From Bacillota bacterium (GTDB taxonomy: Bacteria; Bacillota; Bacilli; Alicyclobacillales; SLC66): a stretch of 37,971 bases of DNA. The notes under the pieces were generated by a model that was not told the origin of the DNA, ran no database searches, and saw only the letters and a program-made list of their open reading frames with translations. Numbering within the stretch: position 1 is the first letter of the stretch; each line of letters begins with the position of its first letter. The position numbers were made by a program, and so were the translations under genes. The DNA lies in contig JAPNUP010000029.1 of NCBI GenBank assembly GCA_026627345.1, forward strand, positions 1-37,971, read 5' to 3'. Shown in pieces: positions 25,272-31,609 of the stretch.

Positions 25272-27062
25272 TTACTCGGTTTCAGCGCTACTCGGCAAAA
25301 CAATCTGTACGGTTGTACCCTTCCCTAGTTGACTCAAGATCGTCATATTCCCTTCATGCAGATCGAGAATTTTGCGACACACCATCAAGCCAAGGCCTGT
25401 GCCTTTCTCCTTTGTTGTATAGAAAGGCTCTCCTAGTCGCGCAAGGCGTTCTTGTGCGATCCCCGTACCTTCATCGCGAATCTCAATCAAGACGTGTTCG
25501 ACGCGCACCTGGCAGGTAATCCAAATGCGTCCGCCTGACGGCATCGCCTCTACAGCGTTTAGCAACACGTTGATCAACACTTGTTTGAGCTGGTTGGCGT
25601 CTGCCAACACGTACCCGGAACAGTGCAGATCAGCGATCAATTGTACCTTCGCTTTGAGCGCCTCCGGGGAAAAAAACGAGATCACTTCTCCGACAACCGC
25701 ATCGATCGAAACGCGCGCACGTTGCGTCGCTTGGGGTTTTGCGAGCAACAGCAGCTCGCTTAAGACCCGGTCGACTCGTGTGAGCTCTTGCAGTATCATC
25801 TCAACATAAGGAATCTTCTCAGGTGACACTCGCTCATTCAGGAGCTGAACGAAGCCTTTGATTACCGTCATTGGATTGCGAATCTCATGAGCAATGCCTG
25901 CTGCCAGTTGACCGACCACAGCCAGTTTCTCAGACTGAAGAAGGCGCCTTTCCACCTCTTTTTTCTCGGTCACGTCTTGCACGGTTCCGAACACTTTCAG
26001 CACGCGCCCATGAACGACCCCTGCATCCACTTGGTAGATAACCTCACGGATAGAGCCGTCCGGTCTCACCACGCGCAGCTCGGTTTCTGACGATCGCCCG
26101 TTTCGGATGGAGTGCTCCCGTGTTTTCATAAAGCGCTCTTGATCATCCGGGTGAATCACTTGGCAAATCTCTTCGAACGTCACTCGTTGCCCAGGAGTAA
26201 AGCCGAAAATCGCAAACATCGTGTCAGACCAATTCACTGTGTCATGCACGATGTCTAACTCGAAGTGGCCTAGTCCAGCTATGCGCACGGCTTGATTCAA
26301 CTGCTCGGTTAGCTGTCGCTGCTGTGTAATGTCGCGCCCAATACCCAGCCAGCGCACGATCGCGCCTGCACTGTTACGGCGCGCTTTCAACGTCGTTTCA
26401 AACCAAAGGTAATGCCCATCTCTGTGTTGAATCCGGTTGATAAAGCGGCCGACATCGTCTCGTGCCGTTAACTGCTCCAGAAAGAGGTGTAAAGAAGGTA
26501 AATCATCCTGGTGAAAGAATCGGTCGTAGTTCCATCCGAGGACTTCCTGCACTTCGTAACCGAGTAAGACGTGTACAGCTGGGGAGACGTAATCGATTAA
26601 GCCGTCTGCGTTCGTGAAGGTGATCAAATCACTTGTTTGCTCGGCCAAGAGGCTAAAGCGATCTTCCGCCGCCAGTGACTCTTGCTCTCTGGCGTGACGC
26701 AACGTGTTATCGCGAAGGATCCCGATCATCCTCGCAACGCCTTCTGTCTGCACTCTCGATACCGTGAGCTCTACGCAAATCTCACCCCCGCTTTTATGTA
26801 ACGCCATGAGTTCGACTGGCACGCCAACGAGCCGTGATTCTCCCGTCTTCACAAAGCGCTGAAAACCGGCGTCATGCGCATTTTTATAGCGGTCAGGGAT
26901 GAGTAACGACAGTTTTTGTCCGATCTGCTCTTGTGCTGTATACCCAAGCAACTTTTGCGCGGCCTGATTCCACAGGCGGATCGTCCCTTCATCATCCGCG
27001 ATAATCACAGCGTCAGCCAAAGCATCAATGACAGAGACTAGTACCGAAGTTGGTACTGACAC
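25272..27062 (-). CDS. Soluble triple-PAS sensor histidine kinase (sporulation-kinase-like)
   Basis: About 596 aa, with no membrane helix. Three PAS domains lie at about residues 5-120, 130-250 and 260-370, followed by a HisKA domain with the phospho-acceptor in GIAHEIRNPM (H392) and a HATPase domain with N box (LLNAVEA), DEGTGI, and GTGLGL. No response regulator gene is nearby, so it is an orphan kinase. Domain order and solubility match KinA/KinE-type kinases that feed the Spo0F-Spo0B-Spo0A phosphorelay; this assignment is inferred. The start is not certain: GTG at 27062 lies 7 bp after AAAGGGAG, ATG at 27068 is too close to it, and the frame runs open to 27134. Tandem Spo0A-type boxes at 27117-27135 suggest feedback control. 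Confidence 0.88.
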   Translation of the reverse strand: MSVPTSVLVSVIDALADAVIIADDEGTIRLWNQAAQKLLGYTAQEQIGQKLSLLIPDRYKNAHDAGFQRFVKTGESRLVGVPVELMALHKSGGEICVELTVSRVQTEGVARMIGILRDNTLRHAREQESLAAEDRFSLLAEQTSDLITFTNADGLIDYVSPAVHVLLGYEVQEVLGWNYDRFFHQDDLPSLHLFLEQLTARDDVGRFINRIQHRDGHYLWFETTLKARRNSAGAIVRWLGIGRDITQQRQLTEQLNQAVRIAGLGHFELDIVHDTVNWSDTMFAIFGFTPGQRVTFEEICQVIHPDDQERFMKTREHSIRNGRSSETELRVVRPDGSIREVIYQVDAGVVHGRVLKVFGTVQDVTEKKEVERRLLQSEKLAVVGQLAAGIAHEIRNPMTVIKGFVQLLNERVSPEKIPYVEMILQELTRVDRVLSELLLLAKPQATQRARVSIDAVVGEVISFFSPEALKAKVQLIADLHCSGYVLADANQLKQVLINVLLNAVEAMPSGGRIWITCQVRVEHVLIEIRDEGTGIAQERLARLGEPFYTTKEKGTGLGLMVCRKILDLHEGNMTILSQLGKGTTVQIVLPSSAETE

Positions 27063-27116
27063 TTCCATACTCCCTTTCACACATCCCGATTGTATCATCA
27101 ACTCAACCCACATAAA

Positions 27117-27135
27117 TTCGACGTAATTCGACAAA
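27117..27135 (-). promoter_or_regulatory. Tandem Spo0A-type boxes between the kinase and amino acid permease genes
   Basis: On the minus strand TTTGTCGAA (27135-27127), identical to the consensus 0A box, is followed by CGTCGAA (27123-27117). The repeats are 10 bp apart start-to-start, one helical turn, as at known Spo0A targets. They lie about 55 bp upstream of the kinase start and about 80 bp upstream of the divergent permease start. Confidence 0.55.
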
Positions 27136-27215
27136 TCCCTGCCGTCTTAGACCTGCATTGATCAACCAGTCTTTGGATATCCTGAGAGGACGTCAATTCA
27201 AGCGGAGGAACACGC

Positions 27216-28652
27216 ATGCTACGCACAAAGGGTTTTGCCACCGTGTCAACGAGTCATCCATTCCCTTCAAAGGAACGAAAAAAGAGCGGGTCGCTCCGCA
27301 CAGGTGGGCTCGTACTAGTCGGGATCGGAGGCATTATCGGTGCCGGTTTTTTTCTCGGGTGTGGTGTTCCCATTCAAGCGGCTGGACCGGCTGTTTTGTT
27401 GTCTTTCTTACTCGGCGGGCTGATCACATCGCAAGTGACGGGCGCTTTGACGTCGATTGCTACACGGCACCCGGTGGAAGGTTCCTTCAAAGTCTATGCT
27501 GATCACTATATAGGACCTTTTGCAGGTTTCATGGAAGGCTGGGTGTACTACCTCACTGGCGTCATTACCATTGCCAGCGAGGCGGTGGCTATGGGGGTGT
27601 TCACGAAGGTGTGGTTGCCAAGCCTGCCACTATGGATATCTTCTTTAGCCTACTCTGGCATCATTATCCTGATCAACGCATTTGGCGTGCGCAGTTTCAA
27701 CCGCGTAGAGTCTTTCATGACCGTGGTGAAAGTGGCAGCACTCGTTGGCTTCATTGTATTCGCAGTGTTGACCATCACTGGCGTCCTTCATCACGCATCA
27801 GTGCAAGCGACAAGCCCCACAATGACCTCGTACGCCAGTCCCTTTTTTGCACACGGCTTCAGTGGCGTCATGCAATCGATGCTCGTCGTGATCTTTGCCT
27901 ATGCAGGCATTGGCGTATTTGCCACAGCAGCGACTAAAGTGGATAATCCGCAAACGATCGAACGAGGTGCCGGGCTCACTGTACTCGTCTTGACACTTTT
28001 ATACATCGTGTCTATTGCGCTCCTTTTGTGGATCCAACCATGGCAGTCGATTTCCACTGACACCAGTCCCTTTGTCCTGGCCATCCGCCAACATGGGGTT
28101 GGATGGATGTCTGATCTTTTCAACGCAGCGATCCTGATTGCTTCATTTAGCGTCATGGCCGGTTCCGTCTTTTCATCGGCGCAAATTCTGTCGAGTCTCG
28201 GTACCGCCCGCGAAGCACCAGCGTTTGTCTCCAAAACATCAAAACGCGGCGTGGCCTATGGCGCCCTTCTTTTCACAGCTGTCGGCATCGGATGCTCGAT
28301 CGGTGCTGCCTATCTGCTTCCAGCTAATGTGTACAACTTCCTCATTAGCGCCTCTAGCTTCATGACTTTCTTTTATTGGGTTCTTATGCTCTGGACGTTC
28401 TTACGCTGGCGTAAAACAGACGAAGGGAAAACGAGTCGCGCTTCCTTACTGGCGTTCGCTGCGCCTTACGGCACGTGGATCACGATTGTCTTTATCATCG
28501 TGTTGACCGCTTACGCACTATTCGACCCGAGTCAGCGCATCGCCTTTTATGCCTTTCTCGCGATCGTAGTCGTGCTCGCTGTGTCTTATCGATTTGTCTC
28601 GAAATCAGGGAAGTTAACGCAGGGAGCAAGTGATCCGAAGGAATGGAGCTAA
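27216..28652 (+). CDS. APC-family amino acid permease
   Basis: 478 aa, twelve predicted membrane helices after a basic N-terminal tail of about 25 residues. Seen: the substrate-binding unwound motif GIGGIIGAGFFLGCG in helix 1 and the helix 2-3 region segment THPVEGSF-like (TRHPVEGSFKVYA), which place it with AAT/ProY-type importers of amino acids such as proline, GABA or aromatic amino acids. The substrate is not determinable. ATG at 27216 lies about 7 bp after GCGGAGG. It is divergent from the sensor kinase, and the tandem Spo0A-type boxes lie in the shared upstream region. A strong hairpin follows. Confidence 0.88.
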   Translation: MLRTKGFATVSTSHPFPSKERKKSGSLRTGGLVLVGIGGIIGAGFFLGCGVPIQAAGPAVLLSFLLGGLITSQVTGALTSIATRHPVEGSFKVYADHYIGPFAGFMEGWVYYLTGVITIASEAVAMGVFTKVWLPSLPLWISSLAYSGIIILINAFGVRSFNRVESFMTVVKVAALVGFIVFAVLTITGVLHHASVQATSPTMTSYASPFFAHGFSGVMQSMLVVIFAYAGIGVFATAATKVDNPQTIERGAGLTVLVLTLLYIVSIALLLWIQPWQSISTDTSPFVLAIRQHGVGWMSDLFNAAILIASFSVMAGSVFSSAQILSSLGTAREAPAFVSKTSKRGVAYGALLFTAVGIGCSIGAAYLLPANVYNFLISASSFMTFFYWVLMLWTFLRWRKTDEGKTSRASLLAFAAPYGTWITIVFIIVLTAYALFDPSQRIAFYAFLAIVVVLAVSYRFVSKSGKLTQGASDPKEWS

Positions 28653-28714: not shown

Positions 28715-29941
28715 TTATCGCGTACTGCCGTGCGCGGCCATCGCCGCATGGTACACCTGCTTGATCGGTACATCATGCGCTTTCGCTGCACGCTTGCAAC
28801 TTTCAAACTCAGGCGCGACGTTGGCAATATTGCCGTCGTGATCCCGCGCAATCTTGACGTCGATCTCGCCAAAAGGTGTCGCGACCAGTACGTTTTCGCG
28901 ATCGAGTACAGAGCGCGATACAGGGTACATACGCACACCAATGGACGTCGTTTCCCGGTGAATGAGGTCGATCAACGCAAAGCGCTCCTCAGCTTGGCAA
29001 AGCACATGAAGCACGAAGCCAGGACGGCCCTTTTTCATGTAAACAGGGGTGACCCACGCATCTAGGGCACCCGACTCCAATAGCCGAGCGGTGGCGTGAC
29101 CGAGCCATTCGGGATTCATATCGTCGATATTGCACTCCAACACATAGGCGCTTTGTGCGTCCGTGAGATCTGGTGCCTCCTGCCCGAGCTGAATGCGCAA
29201 AACATTGGCGACTGCAAAGTCCTTGTAACCAGCCCCATAGCCGATCGCCGTTACTTTCATACGCGGCCGAGGACCACTCGTGGCGAGTGTGCGCAACAAG
29301 GCTGCTCCCGTTGGCGTGACTGTTTCGCCTAGAACCCCTGAGGAATAAGTCTCAAAACCTTCTAACAATAACGCGGTGGCAGGAGCCGGTACAGGCAGGA
29401 TGCCATGGGCGCAGGTAACGGTTCCGCCCCCCACTTCGATCGCTGAAGCGATACAAGTGGGCATACCGGCCAAATACCAGCCTGCGATCGCGCCTACAAT
29501 ATCCACTATGGCATCAAGCGCTCCCACTTCGTGAAAATGGATTTCCTGCACCGAGCGGCCGTGGATCCGAGCTTCGGCCTCTGCCAGAGCGCGAAAAGCC
29601 TGCTTGCTCTTCGCGACCACCGGTTCAGGCAAGGTACTCGCATCGAGAATCTCCTCGATCTCCCGAAGTCCGCGGTGCTCATGGTTGTGCTCATGGTTGT
29701 GCTCATGGTTGTGAGATTCGTCGCCGTCATAGTGGGGCTGCTGATTTGCGACCACCACATCGACCTTGCGCGCGCCAATGCCTTGCTTGTACACTTTGCG
29801 CACCGCAATATCCACGCCATGTAGCGCTAAGCCGGCCAGCATCTCCCGCCAAGCCTGTTCATCGATTCCAAGATCTAACCATGCACCTAAGAACATATCG
29901 CCACTAGCGCCTGCCGTGCATTCTATATAGGCCTTTTGCAA
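28715..29941 (-). CDS. larC: LarC, nickel insertase of the nickel-pincer nucleotide cofactor
   Basis: 408 aa LarC/DUF111 family protein. It inserts nickel into pyridinium-3,5-bisthiocarboxylic acid mononucleotide, a CTP-dependent last step in making the cofactor of lactate racemase and relatives. Seen: N-terminal ECTAGASGDMFLGAWLD, a histidine-rich stretch of repeating HNHE at about residues 77-90, FHEVGALDAIVDIVG and the C-terminal CNIDDMNPE and ESCKxAA segments. It is one continuous frame, unlike the frameshifted larC1/larC2 of Lactiplantibacillus. The start is TTG at 29941, about 10 bp after AAAGGGG. It lies 22 bp after larB in the larE-larB-larC operon. Confidence 0.94.
   Translation of the reverse strand: MQKAYIECTAGASGDMFLGAWLDLGIDEQAWREMLAGLALHGVDIAVRKVYKQGIGARKVDVVVANQQPHYDGDESHNHEHNHEHNHEHRGLREIEEILDASTLPEPVVAKSKQAFRALAEAEARIHGRSVQEIHFHEVGALDAIVDIVGAIAGWYLAGMPTCIASAIEVGGGTVTCAHGILPVPAPATALLLEGFETYSSGVLGETVTPTGAALLRTLATSGPRPRMKVTAIGYGAGYKDFAVANVLRIQLGQEAPDLTDAQSAYVLECNIDDMNPEWLGHATARLLESGALDAWVTPVYMKKGRPGFVLHVLCQAEERFALIDLIHRETTSIGVRMYPVSRSVLDRENVLVATPFGEIDVKIARDHDGNIANVAPEFESCKRAAKAHDVPIKQVYHAAMAAHGSTR
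29675..29710 (-). repeat. Three 12-bp tandem repeats encoding the LarC histidine-rich segment
   Basis: The plus-strand unit GTGCTCATGGTT occurs three times in a row without a mismatch and encodes HNHE units on the minus strand, in a probable metal-binding loop. Perfect identity of the units suggests recent expansion or contraction by replication slippage. Confidence 0.85.
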
Positions 29942-29963
29942 TCGTTACACCCCTTTATTTCTT

Positions 29964-30716
29964 TCACGCCCTGACCGCCAAATGATTGATCCGGCTCGCT
30001 GCGACCGCGGCGCCAAAGCCATTATCAATATTGACCACTGTGACGCCAGATGCACAGCTGTTTAGCATCCCTAGCAGGGCGGACAGCCCACCAAAGTTGG
30101 CTCCATACCCGATGCTTGTCGGCACAGCGATCAGCGGTTTGTCCACCAAGCCACCCACCACGCTCGGCAGGGCCCCTTCCATGCCCGCAATGACGATCAC
30201 CACTTGCGCGGCCGCAATTTCAGGCATCCGGGCAAAGAGGCGATGGATGCCGGCAACCCCTACATCTGCGATCAAATCCGCATGATTCCCTAAGAGTTGT
30301 GCCGTATAAACCGCCTCATGAGCCACCGGCAGATCAGACGTACCTGCGCAAACAACCGCGATACGACCCACCTTAGCCCTAGGCCTCGCCTCCACGACCA
30401 CCAAACGCGCGAGTTCGTGATAGACAGCAGTTGGGGCTACCTCACGAACATCGTCGTAGACTTCCTGTCCGACGCGCGTGACGAGGATGGCATCTGCATC
30501 GCGTCGGTGCAGGCTTTCTACGATCGCTACAATCTGTTCGCGCGTCTTGCCTTGTCCGAAGATCACCTCAGGCACACCTTGGCGCAAAGCACGGTGATGA
30601 TCGACGCTGGCAAATCCGAGATCTTCCGTATGTAAATGTTTGAGCCTTTCTTCCGCCTCAGGGACGGATACTCTTCCGTCTTGCACCGCTTGTAGCAAAT
30701 CGCGATACGTACTCAT
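29964..30716 (-). CDS. larB: LarB, carboxylase/hydrolase of nickel-pincer cofactor synthesis
   Basis: 250 aa. LarB carboxylates the pyridinium ring of nicotinic acid adenine dinucleotide and hydrolyses the phosphoanhydride to give pyridinium-3,5-biscarboxylic acid mononucleotide. Seen: an N-terminal helical region (to about 90) and a PurE-like domain with VCAGTSDLPVAHEA, GMEGALPSVVGGL and SIGYGANFGG. The cysteine in LNSCASGVTVVNIDNG matches the conserved catalytic Cys near the C-terminus. ATG at 30716 overlaps the larE stop by ATGA, so translation is coupled. It is the middle gene of larE-larB-larC. Confidence 0.94.
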   Translation of the reverse strand: MSTYRDLLQAVQDGRVSVPEAEERLKHLHTEDLGFASVDHHRALRQGVPEVIFGQGKTREQIVAIVESLHRRDADAILVTRVGQEVYDDVREVAPTAVYHELARLVVVEARPRAKVGRIAVVCAGTSDLPVAHEAVYTAQLLGNHADLIADVGVAGIHRLFARMPEIAAAQVVIVIAGMEGALPSVVGGLVDKPLIAVPTSIGYGANFGGLSALLGMLNSCASGVTVVNIDNGFGAAVAASRINHLAVRA

Positions 30717-31534
30717 GAGGCGGTCCCAGTAGCAGGTACATTCATCGATCCGGACCGGTAGCCTGCCAGATCAAGACTAACAAACGCATACCCCAGCGCA
30801 TGCAAAAAAGCATGAATCTCTTCTGCTCGTCCGGCTACTTTGGCAATCTCCTGCACTGGCACCTCGATGCGCGCATGATCACCGTGATGCCGTACCCGCA
30901 CCTGTGCAAAACCGAGATCCTTCAAAAAGTCTTCCGCTCGCTCGACCTGTGACAACGCCCCAGCCGTCACGCGCTCACCATAGGCCAACCGCGAAGACAG
31001 GCAAGCGCTCGCCGGCTTATGTGCGACTGAAAGCCCAAAGTGTTCCGCCAGTGCCCGCACATCCGCTTTCACAAACTGTGCCTCCGCGAGTGGCCCGCGA
31101 ATGCCGAGTTCACGTGCCGCGCGCATGCCTGGCCGAAAATCTCCAAGGTCATCGAGGATCGCTCCATAAAGGGTATACGCCATGCCTTCTTCTCGCGCAA
31201 CGTCCAGTAAATCCGAAAACAGCGTCTGCTTGCAAAAGTAGCACCGATTCAAATCATTTCTCGCGTAGTCTTCATTGTCCAATTCCCTCGTGTCAATGAC
31301 GCGATGAGCCACGCCAATGTCGCTCGCCAACTGCTTGGCATACGCCACTTCGCGCTTTGGCACACTCTCGGACGCCGATGTCACCGCCAGAACCTGTGCG
31401 GGTCCCAGCACCTCGACGCACGCGGCCACAAGCACTGCGCTGTCTACTCCGCCTGAAAAAGCGACTAACACTCGCTTCATAGGTGCAAGAATGCTGCCAA
31501 GCTGCCTGTACTTTTCCTGCAAGGCTGTGTCCAT
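30713..31534 (-). CDS. larE: LarE, ATP-dependent sulfur transferase of nickel-pincer cofactor synthesis
   Basis: 273 aa PP-loop ATPase. LarE adenylates the two carboxylates of the pyridinium intermediate and converts them to thiocarboxylates. Seen: PP-loop AFSGGVDS (26-33), a CxxC in NRCYFCK (C98, C101) and ACLSSR (C178). In the Lactiplantibacillus enzyme the single active-site Cys gives up its sulfur; three-cysteine relatives such as that of Thermotoga maritima bind a [4Fe-4S] cluster instead, and this protein has the three-cysteine pattern. ATG at 31534 follows GGGGGAG; the frame runs upstream into repeat copy D. It is the first lar gene, 124 bp after the acetyltransferase gene, with a TATAAT at 31620-31625 in between but a poor -35. 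Confidence 0.93.
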   Translation of the reverse strand: MDTALQEKYRQLGSILAPMKRVLVAFSGGVDSAVLVAACVEVLGPAQVLAVTSASESVPKREVAYAKQLASDIGVAHRVIDTRELDNEDYARNDLNRCYFCKQTLFSDLLDVAREEGMAYTLYGAILDDLGDFRPGMRAARELGIRGPLAEAQFVKADVRALAEHFGLSVAHKPASACLSSRLAYGERVTAGALSQVERAEDFLKDLGFAQVRVRHHGDHARIEVPVQEIAKVAGRAEEIHAFLHALGYAFVSLDLAGYRSGSMNVPATGTAS

Positions 31535-31553
31535 GCGATCTCCCCCGTCTGCC

Positions 31554-31609
31554 AATAACGGCGTAGCCGCTTATTTTTCCCGTAGACGGTGGTGCGACAG
31601 CCCCACCGT
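31554..31609 (-). repeat. Dispersed two-hairpin repeat, copy D
   Basis: Nearly intact copy. On the minus strand hairpin 1 is ACGGTGGGGC-TGTC-GCACCACCGT, then CTACGGGAAA, then hairpin 2 AATAAGCGGC-TA-CGCCGTTATT. It occupies the leader immediately upstream of larE, in the sense orientation, about 10 bp after a TATAAT box. Confidence 0.8.

Follow-up and report, generated by a model that had tools for sequence, protein, structure and literature searches.

A pair of Spo0A-type boxes (0A boxes) lies in tandem between a minus-strand gene for an orphan PAS-domain sensor kinase and a plus-strand gene for an amino acid permease in a 37,971-nucleotide stretch of DNA from a Bacillota bacterium (contig JAPNUP010000029.1, hereafter the window). 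We consider it probable, with moderate confidence, that this pair is a Spo0A operator set within a sigma-H-type promoter, that the promoter serves a sensor kinase of the sporulation type, and that the whole represents a local form of the feedback circuit known to govern the timing of sporulation.

A sigma-H-like promoter encloses the box pair

The first-pass annotation of this DNA described two boxes, 10 bp apart and in the same direction, and both are present as described. The distal box, TTTGTCGAA, occupies positions 27135-27127 of the minus strand and contains an exact TGTCGAA core (27133-27127); the proximal box, CGTCGAA (27123-27117, minus strand), departs from TGTCGAA solely by a C for T at position 1. 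The starts of the two 7-mer cores are 10 bp apart in one orientation, and both boxes are intergenic. The proximal box retains G2, C4 and G5, which are reported as the contacted bases (PMC3485338).

That annotation overlooked a sigma-H-like promoter around the pair. Promoters read by sigma-H follow the consensus RNAGGAWWW-N11/12-RNNGAATWW, and GCAGGGATT-N11-GTCGAATTT matches it at 17/18 positions, the mismatch being a G for A in the -35 element. This score is the highest among 122 tiles of 311 bp across the window. The proximal box doubles as the -10 element and the distal box occupies the start of the spacer, so that the tandem is partly explained by sigma-H. Read along the minus strand from 27142, the order is GCAGGGATT TGTCGAATTAC GTCGAATTT, then TGATACAAT at 27097, AAAGGGAG at 27077, and GTG at 27062. 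The open reading frame (ORF) tool started the kinase at TTG 27134, inside the boxes; a start at ATG 27068 or GTG 27062 is likelier, with GTG 27062 the probable one, and as these codons stand behind the AAAGGGAG sequence, which resembles a ribosome binding site, the boxes fall upstream of the kinase gene. The features of the region are as follows.

27127..27135, minus strand: distal 0A box TTTGTCGAA, in the spacer of the sigma-H-like promoter
27117..27123, minus strand: proximal box CGTCGAA, one mismatch, overlapping the sigma-H-like -10
27134..27142, minus strand: sigma-H-like -35 GCAGGGATT, 8/9 consensus positions
27114..27122, minus strand: sigma-H-like -10 GTCGAATTT, 9/9 consensus positions
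27089..27097, minus strand: alternative sigma-A extended -10 TGATACAAT, one of 4 TGNTANAAT sites in the window, both strands
27070..27077, minus strand: AAAGGGAG, resembling a ribosome binding site
25272..27062, minus strand: orphan kinase PAS-PAS-PAS-HisKA-HATPase_c, probable start GTG 27062
27216..28652, plus strand: divergent amino acid permease (AA_permease, E 1.5e-71)

The exact pair is shared with the spo0A promoter region

Single TGTCGAA sites in the window are no more frequent than expected by chance (5 found, 6.1 expected). The first-pass annotation had proposed judging the pair by how often paired boxes occur across the genome, and had held that frequent identical pairs inside coding regions would speak against it. 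In the 2.76-Mb genome there are two copies of the exact pair, TGTCGAANNNNGTCGAA, and none of its reversed control; neither copy of the pair lies within a gene. The second copy is between the spoIVB-like and spo0A genes, in the spo0A promoter region and on the strand opposite to spo0A; the one available genome of the same genus (G001) retains the pair in its spo0A region with one mismatch. Pairs at a period of 11 (TGNCGAANNNNTGNCGAA) showed no excess, at 23 versus 22 reversed.

Upstream regions of known targets provided a calibration. For spo0A, 39 loci were submitted, 10 of which had no recognised start, leaving 29 readable regions. A pair with a period of 10 and at most one mismatch was present in 16/29 (14 on the sense strand, 2 on the opposite strand); periods of 9 and 14 were each seen once, and periods of 7, 8, 11, 12, 13 and 15 not at all. 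Upstream of spoIIGA, degenerate period-10 pairs (at most three mismatches) occurred on the opposite strand in 19/47 regions, compared with 0-3 for other periods. Because 16 of the 29 spo0A regions carry it, the 10-bp tandem is, as judged by sequence, the form that Spo0A operators take in this order, and the kinase pair shares its spacing. The earlier assertion that phased tandem boxes typify Spo0A targets is thereby borne out for this order. The arrangement differs in one respect: the relatives' spo0A regions have their 10-bp tandem at about -120 to -140, farther upstream and separate from the box at the -10, whereas at the window kinase the two are merged.

Across 61 genomes the exact pair occurred 73 times versus 5 for the reversed control. 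These 73 pairs represent 72 distinct records, assigned to loci by reading: spo0A accounts for 12, kinases for 6 and the coding sequence of mraZ for about 10, and the remaining 44 are at mixed loci, not all of them annotated. We rejected the set as a regulon, given its many mixed loci and some coding coincidences. The mraZ members are conserved codons, which means that the ratio of 73 to 5 overstates function; exact TGTCGAANNNNGTCGAA inside mraZ in about 10 relatives (for example L231 and L244, around 2001) stems from the codons and would be falsely counted by any scan for 0A pairs. Another exact 10-bp pair (G013:C156:7240-7256, L171) lies between two divergent PAS-GGDEF-EAL genes. These flanking genes led us to reject it as a kinase-associated site; it hints that, in that relative, cyclic di-GMP may be controlled by Spo0A.

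The -10 element and the 0A box overlap in sequence in this order

GTCGAA forms the -10 of the best or second-best sigma-H match in 27/29 spo0A regions, about 57 bp before the gene. A strict sigma-H pattern was found 225 times in the 61 genomes versus 36 times reversed, and GTC directly precedes GAAT in 33/118 distinct strict matches typed from relatives. Several strict matches precede genes such as those for DivIVA-like and FtsE-like proteins (named by reading their translations). In the organism's own genome, spo0F has a 16/18 match and the kinase gene on C65 one of 18/18. To judge from these promoter sequences, GTCGAAT in this order is a sigma-H -10 and an 0A-like box alike, and counts of boxes alone therefore overstate the Spo0A regulon. 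A 29-base sigma-H-like sequence, AAAGGAAAAGAGCGATGGTTGGAGAATAT, is present in about 20 copies in one relative (G042) and 2 in another (G034); it probably belongs to an insertion element.

The kinase resembles sporulation kinases

Pfam models identified PAS, HisKA and HATPase_c domains in the kinase, with three PAS S-box stretches. No membrane segment was seen in the protein (the highest 19-residue hydropathy, 1.93, is in the PAS 1 region) and no response regulator was found among the scanned neighbours of its gene, in agreement with its earlier description as a soluble, triple-PAS orphan. Its nearest solved relative is annotated 'Sporulation kinase B' (E 3.7e-44), and its H-box, LAAGIAHEIRNPMTVIKGFVQLL, is KinA-like. 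The name KinD was rejected: the KinD equivalog model NCBIfam NF053867 gave 193 bits, over the kinase part only, far below the curated cut-off of 775. By sequence the protein resembles sporulation kinases. The genome encodes Spo0A (PF08769, E 4.9e-45) and, at C23:9809-10159, a Spo0F with 57% identity to the B. subtilis protein.

A proposed feedback circuit

In the circuit that we infer, sigma-H RNA polymerase would read GCAGGGATT-N11-GTCGAATTT as nutrients run low, and the kinase would be made. The kinase would phosphorylate Spo0F, from which phosphate would pass on to Spo0A. Phosphorylated Spo0A (Spo0A~P) raises sigma-H in B. subtilis, and the same step here would provide an indirect return to the kinase promoter. 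A direct return would come from Spo0A~P binding to the tandem, whose boxes, 10 bp apart, overlie the spacer and the -10; this binding would most likely cap kinase transcription at high Spo0A~P and yield a response that rises and then falls (bandpass).

The B. subtilis kinA, spo0F and spo0A genes reportedly use sigma-H. Their promoters combine the same three elements as the one described here, namely a phosphorelay gene, a sigma-H-type promoter and Spo0A boxes at that promoter, and their response to Spo0A~P is bandpass-like, with activation at low levels and repression at high ones (PMC3182994). The window kinase differs in carrying its tandem 10-bp pair across the sigma-H spacer and the -10. 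A further likeness is with the Ps promoter of B. subtilis spo0A, where box 0A4 overlaps the -10 (PMC12090719), so that the two promoters have in common an 0A box lying on the sigma-H -10. We think, by analogy, that the kinase promoter belongs to this known kind of control by sigma-H and Spo0A~P. The way in which promoter sequence encodes bandpass control by Spo0A~P is described as poorly understood (PMC3182994), and a promoter whose operator half-site consists of sigma-H -10 bases would offer a small, testable design for it. If the proposal is true, an orphan PAS kinase joins the sporulation inputs of this spore former.

The feedback loop suggested in the first-pass annotation holds up in part. 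The kinase's likeness to sporulation kinases, the spo0A-type operator, and the presence of Spo0A and Spo0F genes speak for it; on the other side, a sigma-H promoter accounts for part of the tandem, and the feedback may run largely through sigma-H. The sign of regulation is the weakest step: repression is uncertain, since the box on the -10 of B. subtilis Ps was judged to have minimal effect (PMC12090719).

Several further observations weigh against the proposed operator. GTCGAAT is itself a sigma-H -10 in this order, and the proximal box need not bind Spo0A. Pairs with one mismatch allowed number 8 in this genome versus 5 reversed controls, so that only the exact form stands out and the looser class is mostly background. 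No close orthologue of the kinase was found in 60 relatives, the best outside match among those listed being 47% identical over part of the protein, and the same-genus genome has no similar kinase. The nearest paralogue in the same genome (C82, 60% identical in the kinase part) has neither the pair nor a sigma-H match. We also collected upstream regions of related kinases, picking 92 from the listed matches by rank and membership of the same family (many matches were left out), of which 91 were readable. A pair with at most one mismatch was present in 1/91 and, allowing two mismatches and either direction, in 4/91; a general rule that kinases carry such pairs was rejected on these counts. Matches to sigma-H of at least 16/18 under the GTC model were in mild excess, at 8/91 on the sense strand versus 3/91 antisense. 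Finally, Spo0B was undetected in the genome, PF14689 giving no match at E 1; the Spo0B sequence is described as poorly conserved and highly variable (PMC12826061).

Alternative explanations

The alternative that survives best, although we judge it somewhat unlikely, is a plain sigma-H promoter, in which the proximal box is merely the -10, the distal box is there by chance, and the kinase is induced by starvation with no direct contact by Spo0A. The near-complete consensus match agrees with this explanation, as does the standing of GTCGAAT as a usual sigma-H -10 in the order, found also at genes such as divIVA and ftsE. A further point in its favour is another kinase of the same genome (G000:C65, L136 around 2150-2220), which has a perfect 18/18 sigma-H match, GAAGGATTT-N11-GTCGAATTA, 64 bp upstream of its ORF start and a single box only, with no pair. 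An exact box 10 bp upstream of the -10 would, however, be unexpected: outside spo0A loci and pattern-fetched loci, none of 486 GTCGAA sites has one. Nor would a plain promoter lead one to expect the tandem-in-promoter layout at two further promoters of this genome, described below.

An improbable alternative is a sigma-A promoter activated by Spo0A, the tandem at about -38/-48 stimulating the extended -10 TGATACAAT (27097-27089) in the absence of a -35, with direct positive feedback as the outcome. In spoIIG-type activation by Spo0A, boxes are found at the -35 position, which is the position that the boxes would occupy here, and TGATACAAT is at the correct distance from AAAGGGAG and GTG 27062. 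The sigma-H match is nevertheless the stronger and its layout recurs, whereas the window contains four TGNTANAAT sites and the promoter scan returned no sigma-70-type site.

That neither Spo0A nor sigma-H acts at the kinase promoter, and the pair is a coincidence, is less probable again. The window was one among many read for oddities, and pairs with a single mismatch are at background; against this, the exact pairs of this genome are solely at the kinase and spo0A, and the pair coincides with a 17/18 sigma-H match.

Least probable is control of the divergent permease, or of both genes, by the pair, through which amino acid uptake would be coupled to sporulation as the first-pass annotation had suggested: the intergenic region is common to both genes and the boxes stand 81-99 bp upstream of the permease ATG, but the promoter scan found no sigma-70-like site on either strand of 27000-27300, the sigma-H-like promoter is directed at the kinase, and no kinase lies beside the permease homologue in the four relatives read (G001, G004, G011 and G015), so the coupling was not sustained. 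Within G001, the permease nearest to that of the window is 45% identical to it.

Merged and related layouts at other genes

We scored the -35 at a fixed offset from 77 pair sites (this genome with up to one mismatch, relatives with exact pairs only). Scores of at least 8/9 were obtained at 4/77 sites, compared with a null rate of 0.6%; these counts are small and were examined after the fact. Three of the four sites are in this genome: one precedes the window kinase, another an operon on C4 with a second KinA-like kinase (HisKA-STAS) and an anti-sigma-like ATPase, and the third a gene on C38 for a Bmp-family lipoprotein. It is possible, and we put it forward only tentatively, that a compact module merging a Spo0A tandem with a sigma-H promoter, one half-site serving as the -10, controls the Bmp-type lipoprotein gene as well as both operons of sporulation-type kinases; it would constitute a self-limiting bandpass input common to several entry points of sporulation signals.

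A related arrangement is present in five relatives (G019, G021, G022, G023 and G025), where an orphan, KinA-like HisKA kinase is preceded by an exact 10-bp pair and by a sigma-H-like promoter. These kinases share with that of the window the HisKA domain, the exact type of 10-bp pair and the sigma-H-like promoter. They differ in being a distinct kinase and in their geometry: 40 bp separate the start of the pair from the start of the -35 downstream of it, which looks like an activating position. Judging from these upstream sequences, orphan kinases seem to have come under Spo0A feedback on more than one occasion. In two relatives, three box-like sequences in a row, with a period of 10, are found on the opposite strand before orthologous kinases (L267 and L276), at about 111-121 bp from the ORF start.

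Beyond the permease, the window contains larC, larB and larE in a row (28715-31555), genes connected with the nickel pincer cofactor that lactate racemase uses. The larC ORF is uninterrupted and matches both the LarC1 and LarC2 models.

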